A program made the position numbers and the translations under genes. Under the pieces are notes generated by a model. That model did no database searches. It had not been told where the DNA came from and saw nothing but the letters and a program-made list of their open reading frames with translations. Below are positions 2,100-64,000 of a stretch of DNA of 64,000 nucleotides, in pieces. The stretch's first letter is position 1; the number at the start of each line of letters is the position of its first letter. This DNA is from Phycicoccus avicenniae (GTDB lineage: Bacteria > Actinomycetota > Actinomycetes > Actinomycetales > Dermatophilaceae): contig NZ_JAGSNF010000006.1 of assembly GCF_018139485.1 (NCBI RefSeq), positions 1 through 64,000 of the forward strand, written 5' to 3'.

Positions 2100-3050
2100 T
2101 CAGGCCTTGTCGGCGGTCTCGGCGTCGGCCTCGGTCGGGGCCTGGTCGGCCTCCACCGGGGTCTCGTCGGCCTGCTGCGCGACCTCCTGGGCGGCCGCGG
2201 TGTCGGCGGCCTCGGGCGCGGTCGCGGCGGCGGTCTCGCCGGCCTCGGGGGCGACGGCCTCCGAGGTCTGCTCCGCCTCGCCGGCGAGGAGCTCACGCTC
2301 CCACTCGGCGAGCGGCTCCTCGGTCTCGGTCGACTGCTCGCCGGCGTCGGACTTGCCGCCCGCGCGGGCCATGAGGCCCTCGGCGACGGCGTCCGCGATG
2401 ACCCGGGTGAGGAGGGTGACCGAGCGGATCGCGTCGTCGTTGCCCGGGATCTTGTAGTCGACCTCGTCCGGGTCGCAGTTCGTGTCGAGGATCGCGATGA
2501 CCGGGAGGCCGAGCTTGCGGGCCTCGTCGACGGCGAGGTGCTCCTTCTTGGTGTCGACGACCCAGACGGCCGAGGGCACCTTGCTCATGGAGCGGATACC
2601 GCCGAGCGTCTTCTCGAGCTTGTCCTTCTCCCGCTTCATCATGAGGAGCTCCTTCTTCGTGCGGCCGCTGCCGGCCACGTCGTCGAAGTCGATCTCCTCG
2701 AGCTCCTTGAGGCGCGTGAGGCGCTTGGAGATCGTCTGGAAGTTCGTGAGCATGCCACCGAGCCAGCGGTGGTTGACGTACGGCATCCCGACGCGGGTCG
2801 CCTGCTCGGCGACCGGCTCCTGGGCCTGGCGCTTGGTGCCGACGAAGAGGATCGTGCCGCCGTGGGCGACCGTCTCCTTGACGAACTCGTACGCGTTGTT
2901 GATGTAGCTCACCGACTGCTGCAGGTCGATGATGTAGATGCCGTTGCGCTCGGTCATGATGAAGCGCTTCATCTTCGGGTTCCAGCGACGGGTCTGGTGC
3001 CCGAAGTGGACGCCGCTCTCGAGGAGCTGGCGCATGGTGACGACGGCCAT
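2100..3050 (-). CDS. rpsB: 30S ribosomal protein uS2
   Basis: 316 residues. The N-terminus carries [15 protein letters not shown] (13-27), diagnostic of uS2; the rest of the core follows, including [12 protein letters not shown] and [16 protein letters not shown]. Residues from about 240 are an Ala/Glu/Thr-rich acidic tail of some 75 residues, seen in many actinobacterial uS2 proteins. The start is fixed by AGGAGA 6 bases upstream of ATG 3050. uS2 is a late-assembling small-subunit protein and often represses its own operon through the mRNA leader. Confidence 0.98.
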
Positions 3051-3268
3051 CGTCGTTCTCCTTGCTGTGTGGTTGTCAGTTCCGTCGGTGGTGCCCGAGC
3101 CCCGGAGGGTGGACCCACCTGCCTGGCGTCCTGACGCACCCCGGACGGTCCGGCCGAGGCCGTCCCGTCACTGCCGTGGTGCGCCCCTGCTCGGAGGAGA
3201 CCTCGTCGCAGGAGGAGTGACGCGCGAAATGTCGGTGATCGCGTGCGGACACACGAACACCAGCGGAC

Positions 3269-14354: not shown

Positions 14355-15097
14355 CGCTCTCCCACCGGCATCGCGTGCGTCACGTCGCCATCATCGCCCA
14401 TCGACCCCGGCAGCCGCCACGAGCGCCGGTGCCAGGCGGACGGCCCGTGCACGCGCAGCGCGTCGAGGTGCTCCGGCGCCGCGTACCCCTTGTTGACGGC
14501 CCACCCGTAGGCCGCGTGCTCCCCGCCGTCGTCGCCGAGGCCGACCATGAACCGGTCCCGGCGCACCTTCGCGAGGACGCTGGCGGCGGCCACCGAGGAG
14601 CAGCGCATGTCGGCCTTGACCATCGTCGTCACGGGCGGGGTGACGACGCCGTCCTCGTGGGCGAAGGCGAGCAGCCCGACGTCCTCGGGAGCCGTGAGCC
14701 AGTCGTGGTTCCCGTCGAGGATCACGAGGTCCGGTCGCACCCCGCACGCCTCGAGCGCCCGCATCCCGGCGAGCCGAAGGGCGGCCATGATGCCGACGGC
14801 GTCGATCTCGGCCGCGCTCGCCTCACCGACGGCGTGGGCGAGGGCCCACCGCTCGATGCGGGGGACCATCGACTCGCGCACGTGCGGCTGGAGCAGCTTG
14901 GAGTCGCGGACCCCCTGGGGCGCCGAGCGGCACGTCTCGTCGATGACGACGACGCCGACCGACACCGGGCCGGCGAGCGCGCCGCGCCCGACCTCGTCCA
15001 TCCCCGCGAGGACACGGTGACCGTCGCGCTGCAGCGCCCGCTCGACCCGCAGGCTCGGTCGGCGTGACCCCGTCGCGGCCTGGCGCACCGGGCTCAC
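14351..15097 (-). CDS. rnhB: Ribonuclease HII
   Basis: 248 residues from GTG 15097, which overlaps the lepB stop as GTGA. RNase HII cleaves RNA in RNA-DNA hybrids, including single ribonucleotides in DNA. The DEDD metal-binding residues are visible: Asp-Glu in [16 protein letters not shown], Asp in [10 protein letters not shown] and Asp in [19 protein letters not shown]. The C-terminus (GYGWA-type [16 protein letters not shown]) fits the family. Length is normal. Confidence 0.96.
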
Positions 15098-15975
15098 GGA
15101 GCGGACGTCGGCGACGGCACCCCGGAGAAGGTCGCCGGGAAGTCGGAGAGCCAGCCCAGCCGCGGCAGCGGCCAGACGACCGCGATCGCCCGGCCGGTGA
15201 CCCGGTCCACGGGGACCGAGCCCTCGGCGCCGGTGCCCTCGGGGTCGTGGAAGCGGGAGTCCTCGCTGTCGGAGCGGTGGTCCCCCATGACCCAGATCCG
15301 TCCCTCCGGCACGGTGACGTCGAAGGTCACCGAGCTGGGGACGTCGCCGGGGAAGACGTACGGCTCCTCGATCCGGGCGCCGTTGACGGTGAGCCGGCCT
15401 TCGTCGCAGCACACGACGCGGTCACCCGGGAGGCCGACGACCCGCTTGATGAGGTGGTTCTCGGACTCGCTCGGCAGGAGCCCGACGAAGACGAGCGCGT
15501 CGTTGACGGCGCCGGGGATGCCGGAGCGCGGGTCGGGCTCGGGGGTCCCGCCGAGCCAGTCGCCCGGGTCCTCGAAGACGACGACGTCGCCGCGCTCGAG
15601 GTCGAACGGACCCGGGGTCAGCTTGGAGACGACGACCCGGTCGCCGACGAGGAGGGTCTCCTCCATCGAGCCGGAGGGGATGTAGAACGCCTGGAGGAAC
15701 CACGTCTTGACGACGAACGACAGCACCATCGCCATGACGAGGACGAGGGCGACCTCCTTGACGGCCGCACCGGCCCACCTGACCACCGAGGGGACGCCGG
15801 AGCCGTCGTCGCCGGAGCCGCCGTGACCGGGCCCGACGTGACCTGAGCCGCCGTGACCCGGCCCCCCGTCACCCGAGCCGCCGTCCGCGGGCGTGCCCGG
15901 TCCGGTCGAAGGAGCGGTCCCCGCGCCGGCCTCCTGGGGCGCCGGCTCGCGGGGAGCCTGCCCGGGGGCGCTCAC
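15094..15975 (-). CDS. lepB: Signal peptidase I
   Basis: 293 residues from GTG 15975, overlapping the upstream S26-like gene's stop (GTGA). A Gly/Ser/His-rich cytoplasmic N-tail of about 75 residues leads to one transmembrane helix ([19 protein letters not shown]). Then come the catalytic Ser in [17 protein letters not shown] and the catalytic Lys in [16 protein letters not shown]; the [11 protein letters not shown] box is intact. It removes signal peptides on the outer face of the membrane. A second active copy lies at 35093. Confidence 0.96.
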
Positions 15976-44932: not shown

Positions 44933-47050
44933 TCACTCGGCCTCGGGCGCGGGCAGCGCCGCGGCGACGGCCCGCGAGACCGGCCCCGCGAGCGTGCGGG
45001 CGTACGTCGCGGTGACGTGGTCGCCCGCCCGGTGGACGGTGACGTGGCCGATGACGACCGGGCACTCGCCGCCCGGGCAGATGCGTTCGGTGAGGTCGAG
45101 CAGGCGGACCCCGTCCCCGGCCGCGCGCACCGCCTCCTCCTGCACCGGCAGGGCGCTCGCCTCGCGCGCCGGGCCGACGGGGAAGGTGCACTCGTCGAGG
45201 CTCTCGGGGTTCCAGGCGGCGCACACGTCGAGGTCGTCCGGCGAGTCGGGGCTGTCCCCGATGACGAGGACGGGCACGTCCGCCTCCGCGAGCCGGCGCC
45301 ACTGGGTCGCGTAGCCCTCGACGAGGGCGGCCCGGTCGCGCCCGGCGCCCGTCTCGGCGGTCCGGGCCACGCCGGAGGTGACGACGACGTCCGGCGGGTC
45401 GCCCGTCAGCGCGTCGAGGACGGCCGTGTTCCACACGTCGCACTCCGGGTAGGCCTCGCCGCCCTCCGCCGCGGCGGCCGCGGAGAAGGCGCACGCCGAC
45501 TTGCCGTAGGTCACGACGCGCCAGCCCTCCTCGACCGCCCGCTCCTGGAGCGCCGGCAGCCACTGCATCGCCTTGGAGTCCCCGACGAGCGCGACGGTCA
45601 CCGCACCGTCGGGGTCGCCGAACTCGCAGGCGACGGGCTCGGTCGACGCGGCCGGGACCTGGCAGCGGTCGACGTCCGCGTCCGGCCGGTCGCGACCCGC
45701 GAGGAGGGGGTCCGGGACGGCCCAGCCGGGATCGGCGGCGTTCGCGACCGCGCGACCGGGGACGACGGTGTTGGCCCCGAGGGACGCCAGCGCCGGGACC
45801 GGCCCGTCCGGCGGGGAGGTCTCGAAGGGCGTGCGGAAGGTCATGAGCGGGACCGACGCCGCGACGCCGACGGCGGACAGCGCGACGCCGAACGCGAGCA
45901 TCGCGCGGGGACGCCGCCGCAGGAAGGTCCCGTAGTGCAGCGGCTGCTCGAGGTAGCGCCACGAGACCCACGCGGGCCACAGCGACGCCGCGGCGAGGGC
46001 CACCGTCGCCCAGGCGGGGACCTCGGCGCCCGTGAGGTACTCGACGGTCCAGCCGCCGAGCACGATGACCGGCCAGTGCCAGAGGTAGACCGAGTACGAC
46101 ATCCCGCCCATCCAGACCATCGGCCGGGTGCCGAGCAGCCGGACCGGACCCCACGACGACCCCTGCCAGCCCGCCCACAGCACGAGCGCCGTCGGCAGGG
46201 TGGCGAGCAGGGCCCACGCCCCCGGCCAGTCGACGTCCGTCGGCAGGGCCACCGCGACGGCGACGATGCCGGCGAGGCCCGCCCAGCCCGCGACCGCCGT
46301 CCACGGGGCCGCCCGCTCCGGCCGCTCCCTGCCGGTGAGCCACACCGCGAGCAGGGCCCCGACGCCGAGCTCCCACACTCGGGTCGTCGTGACGAAGAAC
46401 GCGGCCTCCGGCTCGGTCCGCGACATGACGACGGACCACACGAACGAGGCGAGGACGAGGACACCGAGGACCGCGCCGACGACGCGGCGGTCGGGCCGGG
46501 CCCCGAGGCGTCGGGCGACGAGGGCGACGACGAGGAGCAGCAGGGGCCACACGAGGTAGAACTGCTCCTCGACCGCGAGCGACCAGAAGTGCTGCACCGG
46601 CGACGGGGTGAGGTCGGAGGCGAGGTAGTCGACCTCGCGCCCGGCGAGCGTCCAGTTGACGACGTAGAGCGCCGCGTACCGCACGTCGCGGCCGATGACC
46701 TGCAGCCGCTCCCCCGGGACGACCCACCACGACCAGGCCGCGACGACGGCGAGGACGAGCACGGCCGCCGGCAGCAGGCGTCGGATCCGGCGCCCGAGGA
46801 AGCGCATCCACGAGATCCGGCCCGTCTTGTCGAGCTCGGTGAGCAGCAGCCCGGTGATGAGGTATCCGGAGATGACGAAGAAGACGTCGACGCCGGCGAA
46901 GCCCGCGGGGACGGGCAGCCCCGCGTGGTAGACGAGCACGGCGAGGACGGCGACGGCCCGCAGGCCCTCGACGTCGGGTCGGAAGCGGGCGCGCGCGGCG
47001 GCGGACCTCGTGGTCGCCCGCCGCGTCGGCGCCGCGTCAGCCGTGCTCAC
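44933..47050 (-). CDS. Membrane acyltransferase (acyltransferase-3) fused to SGNH domain
   Basis: 705 residues from GTG 47050, starting inside the 3' end of coaD (14-base overlap). Acyltransferase-3 membrane domain (about 20-390): RPDVEGLRAVAVLAVLVYHA with the conserved RxxR-like/His motif, GFAGVDVFFVISGYLITGLL, and PVQHFWSLAVEEQFYLVWPL. The SGNH-hydrolase-like C-terminal domain (about 470-700) has VALVGDSKAMQWLPAL with the Ser of block I and a late Asp-x-x-His-like GHVTVHRAGDHVT. OafA-type enzymes O-acetylate cell-surface glycans or peptidoglycan. Acceptor unknown. Confidence 0.92.
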   Translation of the reverse strand: MSTADAAPTRRATTRSAAARARFRPDVEGLRAVAVLAVLVYHAGLPVPAGFAGVDVFFVISGYLITGLLLTELDKTGRISWMRFLGRRIRRLLPAAVLVLAVVAAWSWWVVPGERLQVIGRDVRYAALYVVNWTLAGREVDYLASDLTPSPVQHFWSLAVEEQFYLVWPLLLLVVALVARRLGARPDRRVVGAVLGVLVLASFVWSVVMSRTEPEAAFFVTTTRVWELGVGALLAVWLTGRERPERAAPWTAVAGWAGLAGIVAVAVALPTDVDWPGAWALLATLPTALVLWAGWQGSSWGPVRLLGTRPMVWMGGMSYSVYLWHWPVIVLGGWTVEYLTGAEVPAWATVALAAASLWPAWVSWRYLEQPLHYGTFLRRRPRAMLAFGVALSAVGVAASVPLMTFRTPFETSPPDGPVPALASLGANTVVPGRAVANAADPGWAVPDPLLAGRDRPDADVDRCQVPAASTEPVACEFGDPDGAVTVALVGDSKAMQWLPALQERAVEEGWRVVTYGKSACAFSAAAAAEGGEAYPECDVWNTAVLDALTGDPPDVVVTSGVARTAETGAGRDRAALVEGYATQWRRLAEADVPVLVIGDSPDSPDDLDVCAAWNPESLDECTFPVGPAREASALPVQEEAVRAAGDGVRLLDLTERICPGGECPVVIGHVTVHRAGDHVTATYARTLAGPVSRAVAAALPAPEAE

Positions 47051-57244: not shown

Positions 57245-57260
57245 GTTCTCTTGTCTCGCA

Positions 57261-57377
57261 GTCAGGTGCCGACCGGTCAGGGCTGTCTCGGGGTCAGGTG
57301 CCGACCGGTCAGGGCTGCCTCGGGGTCAGGTGCCGACCGGTCAGGGCTGTCTCGGGGTCAGGTGCGCACCGGTCAGG
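57261..57377. repeat. 32-bp tandem repeat, 3.7 copies, ending in the ileS stop codon
   Basis: Units 57261-57292, 57293-57324, 57325-57356 and a partial 57357-57377. The third-to-last base pair differs by T/C only. Each unit holds the palindrome GACCGGTC. The last copy runs over the ileS TGA (57375-57373). There are no spacers, so it is not CRISPR. Confidence 0.9.
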
Positions 57378-60300: not shown

Positions 60301-60708
60301 GGCGTTGAACTTCTCGATGCCGAGCTCGAGGATCTCGTCGGTCGTCTTGATGCCGTTCAGGCGCATCGCCTCGAGCTCGGCGGGCAGGCCGTGGGTGTCC
60401 CAGCCGAAGCGCCGCTCGACGCGCTGGCCGCGCATCGTCCGGTACCGCGGGACGACGTCCTTGACGTAGCCGGTCAGCAGGTGGCCGTAGTGCGGCAGCC
60501 CGTTCGCGAAGGGCGGGCCGTCGTAGAAGACGAACTCGTTCTCGCCCCGCTCCCCGGGGTCGCGCTGCTCGACCGAGGCCCGGAAGGTCCCGTCTGACTC
60601 CCAGTGCGCGAGGACGGCCTCCTCGACCTGCGGGAAGCGCGGGCTCGCGGGCACGCCGAACGCGGCGCCGGTGTGCTCACCGGTCGTGGAGACCTTGGGG
60701 TACGTCAT
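57373..60708 (-). CDS. ileS: Isoleucine-tRNA ligase
   Basis: 1111 residues from ATG 60708 with AGGAGAG 8 bases upstream; long form of IleRS (type with C-terminal extension, common in actinobacteria and eukaryotes). Class I motifs: HYGH in [17 protein letters not shown] (73-76), KMSKS in [14 protein letters not shown] near residue 655. The editing domain (CP1, about 190-400) contains [16 protein letters not shown]. It charges tRNA-Ile. Expression is regulated by the T-box leader upstream. Confidence 0.97.
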
Positions 60709-60940
60709 CGCGGGGCTCTCCTGCGGGGGCTCGACTCGTGGGGCCACGAGGACGACGGGTCCGGCCGCTGGGCCGGGCACCACCGCGGTGCCACCTCGCT
60801 TGCCGCCCCATCGGGACGGCCGCTCTTGCGGAAGGTCGTGACGTGACCCCGACGTCCGGGTCTAGTGAGACGAGGGCTGGGCCCTCGCCCGTTCTTCCGG
60901 AGGCTCGCCGCTGATGACGGCTCGGTCGCCTGTGCCCTCG
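60709..60940 (-). ncRNA. T-box riboswitch leader of ileS
   Basis: Minus-strand leader of about 230 bases. The T-box sequence GGTGGCACCGCGG is at 60795-60783. Near the 5' end the specifier region contains ATC (60915-60913), an Ile codon, inside a loop flanked by CCGTC and AGCGG, as in actinobacterial ileS T-boxes. Uncharged tRNA-Ile should pair with ATC and with TGGC. Actinobacterial ileS T-boxes are known to act on translation initiation. Confidence 0.85.
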
Positions 60941-60946
60941 ATGATA
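60941..60946 (-). promoter_or_regulatory. ileS promoter -10 (TATCAT)
   Basis: Minus-strand TATCAT just before the T-box leader. The region 60965-60970 would be a -35 and is shared, on the other strand, with the cobalamin operon promoter. Confidence 0.55.
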
Positions 60947-60964
60947 ACGGCAGGTGGTCCCCGG

Positions 60965-60993
60965 TTCCGACGGGGTTGCGCAGGGGGTACAGT
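60965..60993 (+). promoter_or_regulatory. Promoter of the cobalamin-riboswitch operon
   Basis: -35 TTCCGA (60965-60970), 17-base spacer, -10 TACAGT (60988-60993), leading directly into the riboswitch. Confidence 0.55.
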
Positions 60994-61110
60994 CCAGGTC
61001 GTCGCCCCGGTGGCGACACCCACACGCACCTCACGGGGGAAGCCGGTCGAAGTCCGGCACTGTCCCGCAGCCGTAGGCCACGTCAGTGGCGAGTCGGAAT
61101 GCCCGAGGGA
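60994..61110 (+). ncRNA. Cobalamin (AdoCbl-type) riboswitch aptamer
   Basis: Contains the conserved core: GGGGAAGCCGGTCGAAGTCC (61035-61054), the following GGCAC-TGTCCCGC-GCCGTAGGCC block (61055-61079), and a B12-box-like AGTCGGAATGCCC (61092-61104). This corresponds to the universal GGGAA...GGTGCxAxTCC..GGCAC.GTCCCGC pattern. It precedes the transcobalamin-like gene by about 105 bases. Cobalamin binding would reduce expression, as in known cobalamin riboswitches. Confidence 0.9.
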
Positions 61111-61175
61111 TGCGAGCGGCTCCACACACACCGTCGAGGAACGCGGGACGGAGCCCGGCAGGCCGGCGCCGTCCG

Positions 61176-61202
61176 GCGGTTCGGGTCATCGTCACGAACC
61201 GC
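61176..61202 (+). promoter_or_regulatory. Hairpin next to the ribosome-binding site (riboswitch expression platform)
   Basis: GCGGTTCG (61176-61183) and CGAACCGC (61195-61202) form a perfect 8-bp stem ending 2 bases before the AGGAAG ribosome-binding site, consistent with translational control. Confidence 0.5.
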
Positions 61203-61215
61203 TCAGGAAGGCCCC

Positions 61216-62865
61216 ATGCCCACCACCACGCTCCGCCCCGGCGCCCGCGCGCTCGGGGCCCTGCTCGTCTCCGCCGCACTCGTCGGCGCCCCCTCGGCCG
61301 CCCTGGCCGACGAGACCCCGAGCCCCACGTCCACGCCGACGTCCACCGCGACCGCCTCCCCGGAGCCGACCGCGACCACCACGGACGAGGCGACCCCCAC
61401 GACCTCCTCCACGCCCGAGGCCACCGCGACCCCCGAGCCGCCGGCCACCACCGAGCCGACCACGGACGCGACCGGGGCCACGGACCCGACGCCCGCCGAG
61501 CCGACCCCGTCGGCGTCCGACGACGCGGCGACGACGGCCCCGATGGTCCCCGGCGGCGACGCGGCGCGCTACGGCGTGCAGGCCGTCGAGGGTCCCGCGA
61601 CCTCGACCGACCCGGTGCTCGTCGGGGCGAACTACCTCGAGGAGGAGCTGCGCCGGGGGGACCACGTCCTGTCCCAGGTCTTCGACGGCGTGTCCTACCC
61701 CGACTACGGGCTCACCGCCGACGCGGTGCTCGCGCTCGCCGCGTCCGGCACCGGGCAGGACGAGGCGACGCTCGCGACGGAGGCGCTCGCGGACAACGCC
61801 CTGCAGTACGTCGGCTTCGGCGACCCGAACGAGATCGCCGCCGGTGCCGTCGCCAAGCTGCTCAACGTCGCCGTCGCCCAGGGGGTCGACCCGACCGCCT
61901 TCGGCACCTACGACCTCGTCGCAACGCTCCAGGCGCGCGAGAACGCGCAGGGCCGCTTCGTCGACCAGTCCGCGTACGGCGACTACTCCAACACCTTCGG
62001 CCAGTCCTTCGCCGTCATCGGCCTGCACCGGGCCGCGCCGGGCGGCGCGAGCGCCGACGCGTCGGCCTACCTCGCCGCGCAGCAGTGCCCGGGGGGTGGC
62101 TTCGCCCTCACGATGACCGACGCCGGCTGCTCGGACGACGCGAACGCCGACCCCGACGCCACGGCGATGGCCGTCCAGGCGCTCGACGCGGTGGGCGGCT
62201 ACTCCGCCGAGACGGGCGCCGGGCTCGACTACCTCGCCGGCCTCCAGGACGCGGACGGGGGCAACGGCGGTGGCGGCCCCACCGCGCCGGTCAACGCCAA
62301 CAGCACCGGGCTCGCCGGCCAGGCCTACCTCGCGGGCGGTCGCACGGCGCAGGCCCGGTCCAGCGCGTCCTTCCTCACCGACCTCCAGCTCGGGTGCGAC
62401 GTGGCCGCCCCGCTACGTGGTGCCGTCGCGTACGACGAGGCGCGCTTCGACGCCGCGACGGCCGCGGGCCAGGACGCCGCACCCAGCGACCAGGACCGTC
62501 GCTCCACGGCCCAGGCCCTGCTCGCCCTCGCGGGGGTCCCGCTCGGGACGGTGACCGCCACGGGCGCCGCCGCCGAGGCCCCGGAGCTCGCGTGCGCCGA
62601 GCCGGAGCCCACGGCGACGCCGACGGCCACCCCGACCGCCACCCCCGGCGACCCGACGGCGGAGCCCACGGCCGACGCCTCGGACGAGCCGACCTCCGGC
62701 GCCGTCGGCGGCGGGTCCGACACCCCCGTCGCGGCGGGCCCCACGGGCGCGCTCGCCCAGACCGGCACGGACCCGATCCTGCCGGTCGCACTCGGGCTGC
62801 TGCTCCTCGTGCTCGGCGCCGCCGCCGCGTACGCCTCGAAGCGGCAGCGAGGGGCGCACGCCTGA
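61216..62865 (+). CDS. Secreted alpha-toroid (prenyltransferase/terpene-cyclase-fold) protein, transcobalamin-like, with LAQTG sorting tail
   Basis: 549 residues from ATG 61216, AGGAAG upstream. Signal peptide (1-31: MPTTTLRPGARALGALLVSA, then ..AALADE). Thr/Ser/Pro/Glu-rich spacer about 32-115. Alpha-toroid domain about 130-460 of repeated helix pairs: DYGLTADAVLALAASGT, ANSTGLAGQAYLAGG, DATAMAVQALDAVGGY, DQDRRSTAQALLALAGVP. This is the fold of squalene/prenyltransferase repeats and of the alpha-domain of transcobalamin/intrinsic factor. It has no catalytic motif I recognise. A second Thr/Pro spacer (about 455-500) leads to LAQTG (513-517), a hydrophobic stretch and KRQRGAHA, i.e. a sortase (class E) cell-wall sorting signal. 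Riboswitch-controlled B12 binding is the best inference. Confidence 0.8.
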   Translation: MPTTTLRPGARALGALLVSAALVGAPSAALADETPSPTSTPTSTATASPEPTATTTDEATPTTSSTPEATATPEPPATTEPTTDATGATDPTPAEPTPSASDDAATTAPMVPGGDAARYGVQAVEGPATSTDPVLVGANYLEEELRRGDHVLSQVFDGVSYPDYGLTADAVLALAASGTGQDEATLATEALADNALQYVGFGDPNEIAAGAVAKLLNVAVAQGVDPTAFGTYDLVATLQARENAQGRFVDQSAYGDYSNTFGQSFAVIGLHRAAPGGASADASAYLAAQQCPGGGFALTMTDAGCSDDANADPDATAMAVQALDAVGGYSAETGAGLDYLAGLQDADGGNGGGGPTAPVNANSTGLAGQAYLAGGRTAQARSSASFLTDLQLGCDVAAPLRGAVAYDEARFDAATAAGQDAAPSDQDRRSTAQALLALAGVPLGTVTATGAAAEAPELACAEPEPTATPTATPTATPGDPTAEPTADASDEPTSGAVGGGSDTPVAAGPTGALAQTGTDPILPVALGLLLLVLGAAAAYASKRQRGAHA

Positions 62866-63788
62866 TGCGGCGCGGCATCGCCTCCCGTCTCCTCGGGACG
62901 CTCGCGGCGGCGGGGCTGGCCTCGGCCGGCCTCGTCGCCGCGGCGGCGCCCGCCCAGGCCGCCGCCTGCGAGGGCACGTCCGGCGTCACCGTCGTCGTGG
63001 ACTTCGGCGGCTCCACCCAGGTCCGGTGCGCCGCAGGTGACCCCGGGTCCGGGCTCGCGGCCCTCGCGGCCGCCGGCTTCTCCGTGACCCAGGTGCAGAC
63101 CCAGCCCGGGTTCGTCTGCCGGATCGACGGCGCCCCGAGCAGCGACCCGTGCCGCAACACCCCGCCGACGACGGCCTACTGGTCCTACTGGCACGCCTCG
63201 CGGGGCGGGTCGTGGTCCTACAGCAACCTCGGCGCGGGGTCCTACGACCCGGCACCGGGCAGCGTCGAGGGCTGGTCCTTCGGCGGGGGCGGTCAGCCCG
63301 GCACCGCCCCTCCGGCGCCGACCCGCACGACCGCACCGGCACCGACGACCACCCCGAAGAAGACCTCCACCCCGAAGCCGACGTCCGGAGGGTCGTCGAC
63401 GACGCCGTCCCGCGGGGGGTCCGGTGGCGGGTCCACCTCCGGCGGGTCCGGCGGGACGACCTCCGGTGGCTCCTCGACGGGTGGCGGCACCGGCGGAGGC
63501 GCCGACGCCGACGACCCCACGGCCTCCCCTTCGGCGACGAGGAAGCCGCCCCGCGCGAAGGCCTCCCCGAGCCCGAGCGCGTCGGACAGCGTTACGCCCT
63601 CCTCGTCGGCCACGCCGTCGGACGCCCCCGGCGATGCACCGAGCGAGGACCCCCGGGAGCTCGCCGCGTCGCCGACCTCCGCCACGGGGTCCGGGTCGGG
63701 CACGGGCACGCTCCTCACCGGGCTGGGGCTCGCCGCGCTCGTCGCCGCGGGCGCCGGCTGGACGATGTGGCGACGGCGCAGCGCCTGA
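62865..63788 (+). CDS. Secreted DUF4430 (transcobalamin C-terminal-like) protein with C-terminal membrane anchor
   Basis: 307 residues; ATG 62865 shares one base with the preceding stop (TGATG). Signal peptide 1-33. Residues 34-145 form DUF4430: GVTVVVDFGGSTQVRCAAGD, a Cys pair around FVCRIDGAPSSDPCRN, and the aromatic signature AYWSYWHASRGGSWSYSNLG and SYDPAPGSVEGWSFG. DUF4430 is the family related to the beta-domain of transcobalamin and intrinsic factor, which caps cobalamin. A long Gly/Ser/Thr/Pro linker (145-270) leads to a C-terminal helix (LLTGLGLAALVAAGAGWTMW) and RRRSA; no LPxTG-type motif is seen, so it is membrane- rather than wall-anchored. Confidence 0.85.
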   Translation: MRRGIASRLLGTLAAAGLASAGLVAAAAPAQAAACEGTSGVTVVVDFGGSTQVRCAAGDPGSGLAALAAAGFSVTQVQTQPGFVCRIDGAPSSDPCRNTPPTTAYWSYWHASRGGSWSYSNLGAGSYDPAPGSVEGWSFGGGGQPGTAPPAPTRTTAPAPTTTPKKTSTPKPTSGGSSTTPSRGGSGGGSTSGGSGGTTSGGSSTGGGTGGGADADDPTASPSATRKPPRAKASPSPSASDSVTPSSSATPSDAPGDAPSEDPRELAASPTSATGSGSGTGTLLTGLGLAALVAAGAGWTMWRRRSA

Positions 63789-63800
63789 GGTGAGCACGCC

Positions 63801-64000
63801 GTGAGCCGCGCGCTGCCCCGGAGCGTCCACCCCGCCGCCTGGTGGGCGTGGGCGCTCGGGCTCGCCGTGGCCGTGAGCACGACGACGAACCCGCTGGTGC
63901 TGCTCCTCGCCCTCGCCGTGGCGGCCCTCGTCGTCGCCGCTCGGCGCGGGTCCTCGCCGTGGGCCCGGGCCTTCCGGCTCTACCTGTGGCTCGGCCTGGC
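63801..64000 (+). CDS. ECF transporter transmembrane subunit EcfT (CbiQ-like), N-terminal part
   Basis: 66 residues visible, gene runs past the window end. GTG 63801 with AGGTGAG 6 bases upstream, 12 bases after the preceding gene. SRALPRSVHPAAWWAWALGL, NPLVLLLALAVAALVVAARR and SPWARAFRLYLWLGLA are like the start of actinobacterial EcfT proteins: two hydrophobic segments with the PWARAFR loop. EcfT couples a substrate-binding S protein to the ABC ATPases. The order riboswitch, binding proteins, EcfT suggests cobalamin import; the S component and ATPases should follow outside the window. Confidence 0.8.
   Translation, partial: MSRALPRSVHPAAWWAWALGLAVAVSTTTNPLVLLLALAVAALVVAARRGSSPWARAFRLYLWLGL

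Follow-up and report, generated by a model that had tools for sequence, protein, structure and literature searches.

The window analyzed here, the first 64,000 nucleotides of the 184-kb contig C13 of Phycicoccus avicenniae (genome of 3.54 Mb, 99.94% complete), ends within an operon that carries a cobalamin riboswitch, the genes of two secreted proteins and those of an energy-coupling factor (ECF) transporter. We consider it likely that this operon ensures cobamide uptake and is repressed as long as the cell contains enough cobalamin, its two secreted proteins acting as a split, transcobalamin-like capture device that would feed the ECF importer. Capture and import of corrinoids had been proposed in a preliminary description of the window. 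That the secreted proteins bind corrinoids and pass them on to the ECF importer is inferred from the linkage to the riboswitch, the gene order found across actinobacteria, natural fusions of the two surface domains, the homology of the smaller one to DUF4430, and a genome that has B12 enzymes and no match to CbiC or CobS.

Organization of the Operon

Read from the sequence and from profile matches, the operon has the order cobalamin riboswitch, toroid protein, beta-grasp protein, EcfT, double EcfA, S component and NUDIX protein, all on the forward strand. The riboswitch aptamer (60977..61122) is followed by a leader (61123..61215) that carries a conserved hairpin and an AGGAAGG motif and is the probable expression platform. 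Next come the gene of a secreted alpha/alpha-toroid protein resembling SCO2321 (61216..62865, core domain at 61615..62595 in alignments A1 and A2) and that of a secreted beta-grasp protein of the DUF4430/SLBB-like kind (62865..63789, beta-grasp domain at 62952..63302). The stop codon TGA of the first and the start codon ATG of the second have one base in common, at 62865. EcfT, of the CbiQ family, starts 11 bases after the end of the beta-grasp gene (63801..64979, of which the window holds 63801..64000). Genes past position 64,000 were read from the same contig (stretch L001, G000:C13:60001-80000). They encode the double EcfA (contig 64972-66615), the ECF S component (contig 66612-67445) and a NUDIX/DUF4916 protein (contig 67442-67981), each starting within the end of the preceding gene.

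The transporter genes are recognizable to different degrees. The whole EcfT protein matches CbiQ (PF02361) with 38.4 bits for a cut-off of 25. Both EcfA domains lie in one polypeptide, as two ABC_tran stretches. The S component has a single Pfam match, to ECF_trnsprt (PF12822), at 27.1-27.4 bits, just under the cut-off of 30.7; its Streptomyces counterpart (locus L067) passes this cut-off with 31.5 bits.

The preliminary description had announced a cobalamin riboswitch ahead of the genes, a one-base overlap between the two secreted-protein genes, an EcfT subunit and an LAQTG tail on the toroid protein, and had pointed past position 64,000 for EcfA and S component genes. All of these are borne out, the LAQTG tail by a narrow pass of TIGR01167 (16.0 bits, cut-off 15.9).

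The Cobalamin Riboswitch and Its Leader

The Rfam cobalamin model RF00174 matches positions 61036-61104 (+) with 34.9 bits, above its gathering score of 31.5, and this score is also reached in 9 of 11 loci of near relatives. Wider counts rest on R1, our own covariance model, and not on that of Rfam. R1 is genus-trained, from 11 related leaders; that of the window scores 141.9 bits (60977-61122) but is itself one of the model's building sequences. The consensus fold of the 11 leaders has 35 pairs, and for 11 of these at least one leader carries a double substitution that preserves pairing.

Among 36 loci found in named genomes (see below), 31 have an R1 match. Eight of the 36 contain DNA used for the model, and in the remaining loci the proportion is 23 of 28. 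All 34 R1 matches obtained at E ≤1 in 38 loci (0.61 Mb) are located ahead of a toroid or beta-grasp gene.

Immediately 5' of the ribosome-binding sequence AGGAAGG, a hairpin can be formed by GGCGGUUCG...CGAACCGC. Both elements are strongly conserved in eight sequences of the genus and the hairpin appears in the predicted fold of the leader. This conservation suggests a control of translation. Such a control is proposed with caution because the complete leader does not fold better than shuffled sequences (z -1.1).

The Toroid Protein

The first open reading frame encodes a protein of 549 residues. A signal-peptide-like start is followed by a Ser/Thr/Pro-rich linker, a core of 327 residues, a second linker and a tail made up of LAQTG, a transmembrane segment and basic residues; the signal peptides and transmembrane segments of both surface proteins were judged by eye. 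The features of a sortase-anchored protein are all present, namely an LPXTG-like motif (LAQTG) followed by a transmembrane segment and a basic tail, and a host genome in which five sortase matches exceed the cut-off.

The preliminary description had called this protein an alpha-toroid. The window protein itself has no Pfam match for the alpha-toroid families, and the assignment comes from its relatives and from structure prediction. Pfam Prenyltrans is found in 22 of 30 members of the family (E ≤0.1), those of alignment A2, which covers 30 of 38 toroid stretches (L043, L047, L055, L059, L063, L067, L068 and the second copy of L064 omitted). The AlphaFold2 model of the core (residues 134-460) has a mean predicted local distance difference test (pLDDT) score of 97.2. 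Foldseek gives 667 matches in the PDB at E ≤10, 52 of them at E ≤0.001, and those with alpha/alpha toroids reach a TM-score (query length) of 0.66. The fold of the window protein is thus, as modeled, an alpha/alpha toroid. By itself, this fold cannot identify a transcobalamin. At the sequence level, the window toroid matches NCBIfam NF053823, the SCO2321 family, with E 2e-32, under the curated cut-off. Cys158 and Cys172 of the core are invariant in the alignments and would be compatible with a disulfide in a secreted protein. Asp36, Lys81, Gln130, Asp181, Thr183, Asn229 and Gln300 of the core are likewise invariant.

The Beta-Grasp Protein

The second protein (307 residues) begins like a signal peptide and continues with a small domain in which four cysteines are conserved; a long Ser/Thr/Pro-rich linker, a transmembrane segment and an arginine tail make up the rest. 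Its C-terminus shows no clear sorting motif. It matches NCBIfam NF040672 (SCO2322_fam) with E 1.7e-7, under the cut-off.

The attribution of this protein to DUF4430 in the preliminary description has to be divided in two. Membership of the Pfam family (PF14478) is rejected, since neither the window protein nor its own genome gives a match, and the 36 family members give none either (E ≤0.1). Those members are the domains of alignment A3, which holds 36 of 39 (L043, L055 and L068 omitted). The relationship is kept at the profile level. A reference profile, A6, was made of 20 domains of the same phylum (20 of 25 DUF4430 loci; 34 of 198 genomes of the phylum carry the domain). With hhalign, the beta-grasp family aligned to it with a score of 40.4 and a probability of 90.9; the reverse direction gave a score of 43.6, and probabilities ranged from 90.9 to 93.2. 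The controls remained far below, at 18.7 at most for 200 column shuffles, 9.5 for the reversed profile and 10.6 for the toroid profile. Because a score of about 40 stands so far above all of these, we take the beta-grasp family as homologous to DUF4430 on this profile evidence.

The domain is modeled by AlphaFold2 with a mean pLDDT of 87.2, and the weak Foldseek matches of the model include many beta-grasp folds (UBL, FERM, 2Fe-2S ferredoxin). Two sets of PDB sequence matches were discarded as chance. Those of the whole protein are nearly all antibody fragments, reached through the Gly/Ser-rich linker, and those of the domain profile are antibody chains with E 0.007 or worse.

The DUF4430 loci of the phylum deserve two remarks of their own. 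In L074, L075, L077, L080 and L084, an N-terminal transmembrane-like segment and a DUF4430 domain precede a similar C-terminal region. An Rfam scan of 20 of the 25 loci found a cobalamin riboswitch in one, L086, where a strong match of 87.9 bits (2904-3105, - strand) lies upstream of a typical DUF4430 gene, at a distance of about 1.2 kb from the domain.

Conservation of the Operon

A scan of named genomes with the toroid profile led to 36 loci, in Phycicoccus, Knoellia, Dermacoccus, Dietzia, Janibacter, Nocardioides, Amycolatopsis, Cellulomonas, Jonesia, Streptomyces and Acidimicrobiales, among others. Phycicoccus and other Intrasporangiaceae are the nearest named relatives of the window genome in this search. 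Since the loci were selected by their toroid, the toroid count is no evidence; the companion genes and the riboswitch still count. Gene order could be judged in the 27 loci whose sequence continues for 5.3 kb or more beyond the toroid (eight others end at contig ends, and L049 is divergent). Genes for beta-grasp, EcfA and S proteins are each found 3' of the toroid in 27 of 27, and EcfT in 26, its profile being without match in L063. In L049, the ECF genes and the beta-grasp gene are on the opposite strand, adjoining a fused beta-grasp/toroid gene.

In a set of 29 genomes that includes the window's own, the beta-grasp profile matches in 17, covering all 12 that have a toroid match. Four of these 17 matches are weak and partial (E 1e-7 to 1e-9), and one genome, G023, has a strong match and no toroid match.

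Two loci show additional copies. Genome G013 has a complete operon (L103) and a stray toroid gene (L027, 1561-2968) with its own cobalamin riboswitch; upstream of the latter lies a transposase-like open reading frame (32-877, recognized by eye) that contains a group II intron match (310-409). In L046, a stand-alone lipoprotein-like beta-grasp gene (15057-15787, - strand) with its own cobalamin riboswitch adjoins a full operon.

Domain Fusions and Circular Permutation

Toroid and beta-grasp domains, which are separate proteins in the window, share one reading frame in five loci. The order is beta-grasp then toroid in L040, L042, L049 and L055, and toroid then beta-grasp, as in transcobalamin, in L029, a single genome whose sequence is unchecked against reads. 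The fusions of L040, L042 and L055 are alike and need not be independent events. In Cellulomonas locus L059 (9865-11538), it is the beta-grasp domain and EcfT that share one frame, which links the transporter directly to a surface domain.

Three loci, L067 of Streptomyces, L100 and L101, have small-domain motifs that can be read as a second half followed by a first half. Rotation of the profile near residue 67 raises the scores from 38.6 to 48.3 bits in L100, from 34.8 to 42.2 in L101 and from 30.6 to 42.7 in L067. When cuts were scanned every four residues in L100 and L101, the best position was 64-68 in both; the margin is modest, cuts near 28-36 being close in total bits. For the toroid of L067, a cut near residue 115 raises the best single stretch from 91.7 to 147.7 bits and the total from 139.2 to 148.5. 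Among control toroids, those of L058 and L044 score best unrotated and that of L068 is little changed. The domains of the Streptomyces form therefore look circularly permuted relative to those of the window. The small domain is the stronger case, because a shift of repeats in a repeat fold could mimic the toroid result. Such a permutation would also account for the partial matches of the window proteins to SCO2321_fam and SCO2322_fam.

B12 Physiology of the Host

Neither CbiC nor CobS has a match in the P. avicenniae genome. B12-binding domains exceed the cut-off in five places, of which four were examined. Two of these, MetH and one methylmalonyl-CoA mutase, pass the equivalog cut-offs of NCBIfam; the other two, a further mutase and an IcmF-like protein, give strong matches but remain under them, on incomplete stretches. 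The bacterium is thus probably unable to make vitamin B12, as judged from its gene content. Import of complete cobamides is probable because the two synthesis enzymes were not found while MetH and methylmalonyl-CoA mutase are present. As the genome fits a cobamide user without synthesis, cobalt or cobinamide is unlikely as the main cargo.

Two cobalamin riboswitches were found in this genome, from the 79 of 261 first-look candidates that were scored. The second one (L098, G000:C5:44000-49500; contig 45132-45335; 77.6 bits) is located 5' of nrdB-nrdA, encoding the small and large chains of ribonucleotide reductase.

Proposed Mechanism

When cobalamin is scarce, the leader would permit translation of the operon genes. 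The toroid, anchored to the wall, and the beta-grasp protein, held by the membrane, would then represent the two halves of a transcobalamin-like cage, the corrin entering the cavity of the toroid and the beta-grasp domain closing over it. The captured complete cobamide would be released to the ECF S component, and the ATP-driven EcfT/EcfA module would carry it inward. Once imported, it would supply MetH and enzymes of the methylmalonyl-CoA mutase type in a host that appears incapable of corrin-ring synthesis or nucleotide-loop attachment.

In ECF importers, the substrate-binding part is normally their own membrane S component. A broader proposal can be made tentatively, and we give it somewhat less than an even chance. 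The split two-protein transcobalamin would be a dedicated extracellular receptor of ECF importers, and actinobacteria would possess it in two forms that differ by a circular permutation of each domain. If this is true, the two forms mean that selection keeps the cage while the chain ends have moved.

Arguments Against Cobamide Capture and Alternative Explanations

The observations that weigh against cobamide capture by the toroid/beta-grasp pair are best considered together with the alternatives. Several of them concern the toroid, which in the sequence and fold searches is nearer to terpene cyclases than to transcobalamin. Cobalamin_bind (PF01122) has no match in the window toroid and one in 30 family members (E 0.001, under the cut-off). 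Drimenyl diphosphate synthase and squalene-hopene cyclases are at the top of the Foldseek matches of the toroid model and glycosidases come lower, whereas transcobalamin and intrinsic factor are absent, all this among the best 50 of 667 matches. When the toroid profile is compared with PDB sequences (58 matches at E ≤10), terpene cyclases again come first and there is no B12 carrier. For the beta-grasp model, none of the 122 Foldseek matches in the PDB reaches E ≤0.001 (best 0.098), and the best 50 of them include no B12 carrier.

The distribution of the genes adds to these points. G019 and G022, found by a search that did not start from the toroid, have a weak, partial beta-grasp match beginning about 0.2-0.25 kb after a riboswitch and followed by EcfT-EcfA-S. 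Their cobalamin riboswitches are weak (24.2 bits, under the Rfam gathering score), and the profile search gave no toroid match in the operon stretch or anywhere in either genome. Some lineages, as the operons of these two genomes show, can thus dispense with the toroid. G023 has EcfA and S sequences, in one frame, after its beta-grasp gene, and no cobalamin riboswitch match was found despite the presence of the beta-grasp gene with ECF genes. Because these three genomes keep the pairing without a toroid match, the toroid appears optional and the beta-grasp/ECF pairing more constant. For the same reason, namely that some relatives keep the beta-grasp gene with ECF genes and no detectable toroid gene, the beta-grasp protein is probably the component nearest the transporter.

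One alternative is that the toroid acts as a secreted enzyme of terpene-cyclase-like or carbohydrate-active type, a passenger in the operon, and that the beta-grasp protein alone serves the transporter. The class II terpene cyclases that provide its best sequence and fold matches, the glycosidases among the latter and the operons without toroid match speak for this explanation. However, the DxDD motif, which we take to be the signature of class II enzymes, reads DPDAT in the window toroid. Furthermore, this protein leaves the cell and bears a tail for wall anchoring, toroid and beta-grasp domains are fused in five loci, and the riboswitch and gene order link the toroid to the ECF genes. We therefore regard an enzymatic role as unlikely, although it survives better than the other alternatives.

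Further points against cobamide capture relate to the cargo and to the regulation. In its profile A7, made from the copy of the window genome and those of 14 of the 28 named loci carrying one, the S component matches no PDB chain by sequence (E ≤10) and could not be linked in this way to CbrT, the known B12 S component of Lactobacillus delbrueckii. The RF00174 gathering score is reached in only one of seven distant loci, and R1 finds no riboswitch in five of the 36 named loci (L049, L054, L059, L062 and L063). Finally, CbiC is found in 2 of 12 toroid-bearing genomes vs. 8 of 17 toroid-free ones, a difference that is a trend only (Fisher p 0.13). The idea that B12-making relatives lack the operon was accordingly not retained, p being 0.13 both within the genus and for all genomes, and kinship being a confounding factor.

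The operon could encode a cobalt transporter, with the surface proteins as accessory metal or corrinoid sensors. The EcfT family PF02361 bears the name "Cobalt transport protein," and cobalt transporters belong to cobalamin riboswitch regulons (PMC3766115). On the other hand, the sole Pfam match of the S component is ECF_trnsprt (the window copy being under the cut-off) and not a cobalt component, the enzymes CbiC and CobS that would use cobalt for B12 were not found in the genome, and a toroid associated with an SLBB domain would suit a large ligand. Cobalt transport is, in our view, quite improbable.

Import of incomplete corrinoids (cobinamide) or of a lower ligand for salvage would look identical with respect to cobalamin riboswitch control, and BtuG2 of Bacteroides binds cobinamide as well as cobalamin (PMC6143338). 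Nevertheless, CobS, responsible for nucleotide-loop attachment, was not found, which would close the known route from cobinamide to a complete cobamide; we would grant salvage only a very slight chance. That a different vitamin or cofactor is imported, the riboswitch being mere cross-regulation, is barely credible: NCBIfam matches of the S component are of folate type in 7 of 15 members (best E 1e-7), another point against a cobamide cargo, and of riboflavin type in 3 of 15, but that of the window copy is weak (E 0.04, far under the curated cut-off) and many distant genera also have a cobalamin riboswitch ahead of this operon.

Relationships With Known Systems

Cobamide capture by a toroid and a beta-grasp domain, our preferred reading, has a precedent. 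Burroughs et al. (2007; PMC1796856) defined the SLBB superfamily and placed the C-terminal domain of transcobalamin in the beta-grasp fold. They described bacterial wall-anchored toroid-SLBB proteins, with the toroid on either side of SLBB, encoded in operons with CbiO and CbiQ in hosts that usually lack key enzymes of B12 synthesis, and proposed a role in B12 scavenging. Animal B12 carriers were derived there from low-GC Gram-positive bacteria. The present operon resembles this clade by its secreted or wall-anchored toroid and beta-grasp domains, its CbiO/CbiQ-type genes, a host that probably lacks B12 synthesis and a predicted scavenging function. Several features set it apart. The hosts named for the clade are low-GC Gram-positives, planctomycetes and some euryarchaea, whereas those studied here are actinobacteria, in which the S component is conserved. 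Each domain is a protein of its own in the present operon, and the beta-grasp family falls outside Pfam DUF4430. Finally, the present operon is riboswitch-controlled, and the word riboswitch is never used in the text of PMC1796856. The operon is therefore a divergent, split, riboswitch-controlled actinobacterial variant of the kind predicted in 2007. The concept is old, and what is new is the split and apparently permuted architecture, the riboswitch-ECF linkage and a prospective outside receptor for an ECF importer.

Animal transcobalamin, intrinsic factor and haptocorrin likewise associate a toroid with a DUF4430-type beta-grasp domain (PMC1796856, PMC4350170). In the present case, there are two polypeptides instead of one, with bacterial surface anchoring; the window toroid has no Cobalamin_bind match, and binding is a prediction. 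The Streptomyces proteins SCO2321 and SCO2322 (NF053823, NF040672) are closer, with piecewise matches and, in L067, the same order with ECF genes. Nonetheless, the window scores are under the curated cut-offs, and a circular permutation seems to separate the Streptomyces form from that of the window in both domains.

With regard to transport, ECF-CbrT of L. delbrueckii is also an importer made of S component, EcfT and EcfA. Cobalamin is its substrate (PMC5997447) and is the inferred one here. Differences from that system are the double EcfA in one polypeptide, the additional surface proteins and an S component without PDB sequence match. In acI Actinobacteria, ECF modules behind cobalamin riboswitches were predicted to be cobalamin transporters in hosts without B12 synthesis (PMC5301498). 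These share with the present operon an actinobacterial ECF system and a cobalamin riboswitch; toroid/beta-grasp surface proteins are not mentioned in the portion of that article available. The BtuG lipoproteins of Bacteroides are alike in idea, with B12 capture at the surface and hand-over to a transporter (PMC6143338). However, BtuG has a beta-propeller fold and an outer-membrane partner, BtuB, and is unrelated to the present proteins.

In the open-licence literature, we found no paper on SCO2322, nothing relevant on SCO2321 and nothing that we recognized as experimental work on such proteins, and an earlier description of the actinobacterial operon may exist. If the proposed function is right, many actinobacteria would have a named, testable B12 receptor pair, ECF importers would gain an outside receptor, and animal B12 carriers would gain bacterial relatives bearing on their origin. 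The natural fusions and the circular permutation offer direct handles for structural work.

The Region Upstream of the Operon

The genes upstream of the operon include neighbors that we presume to be folC and ileS, labels given by eye. The leader of the ileS-like gene (window 60700-60960, - strand) holds GGTGGCACCGCGG, which resembles what we take to be a T-box sequence; the Rfam T-box model gives only 9.6 bits (E 6.6). A T-box-like leader and the cobalamin riboswitch would then occupy one divergent intergenic region. Between the folC-like and ileS-like genes, a tandem array (57252-57377) consists of 3.9 copies of a 32-base unit with 93% matches.

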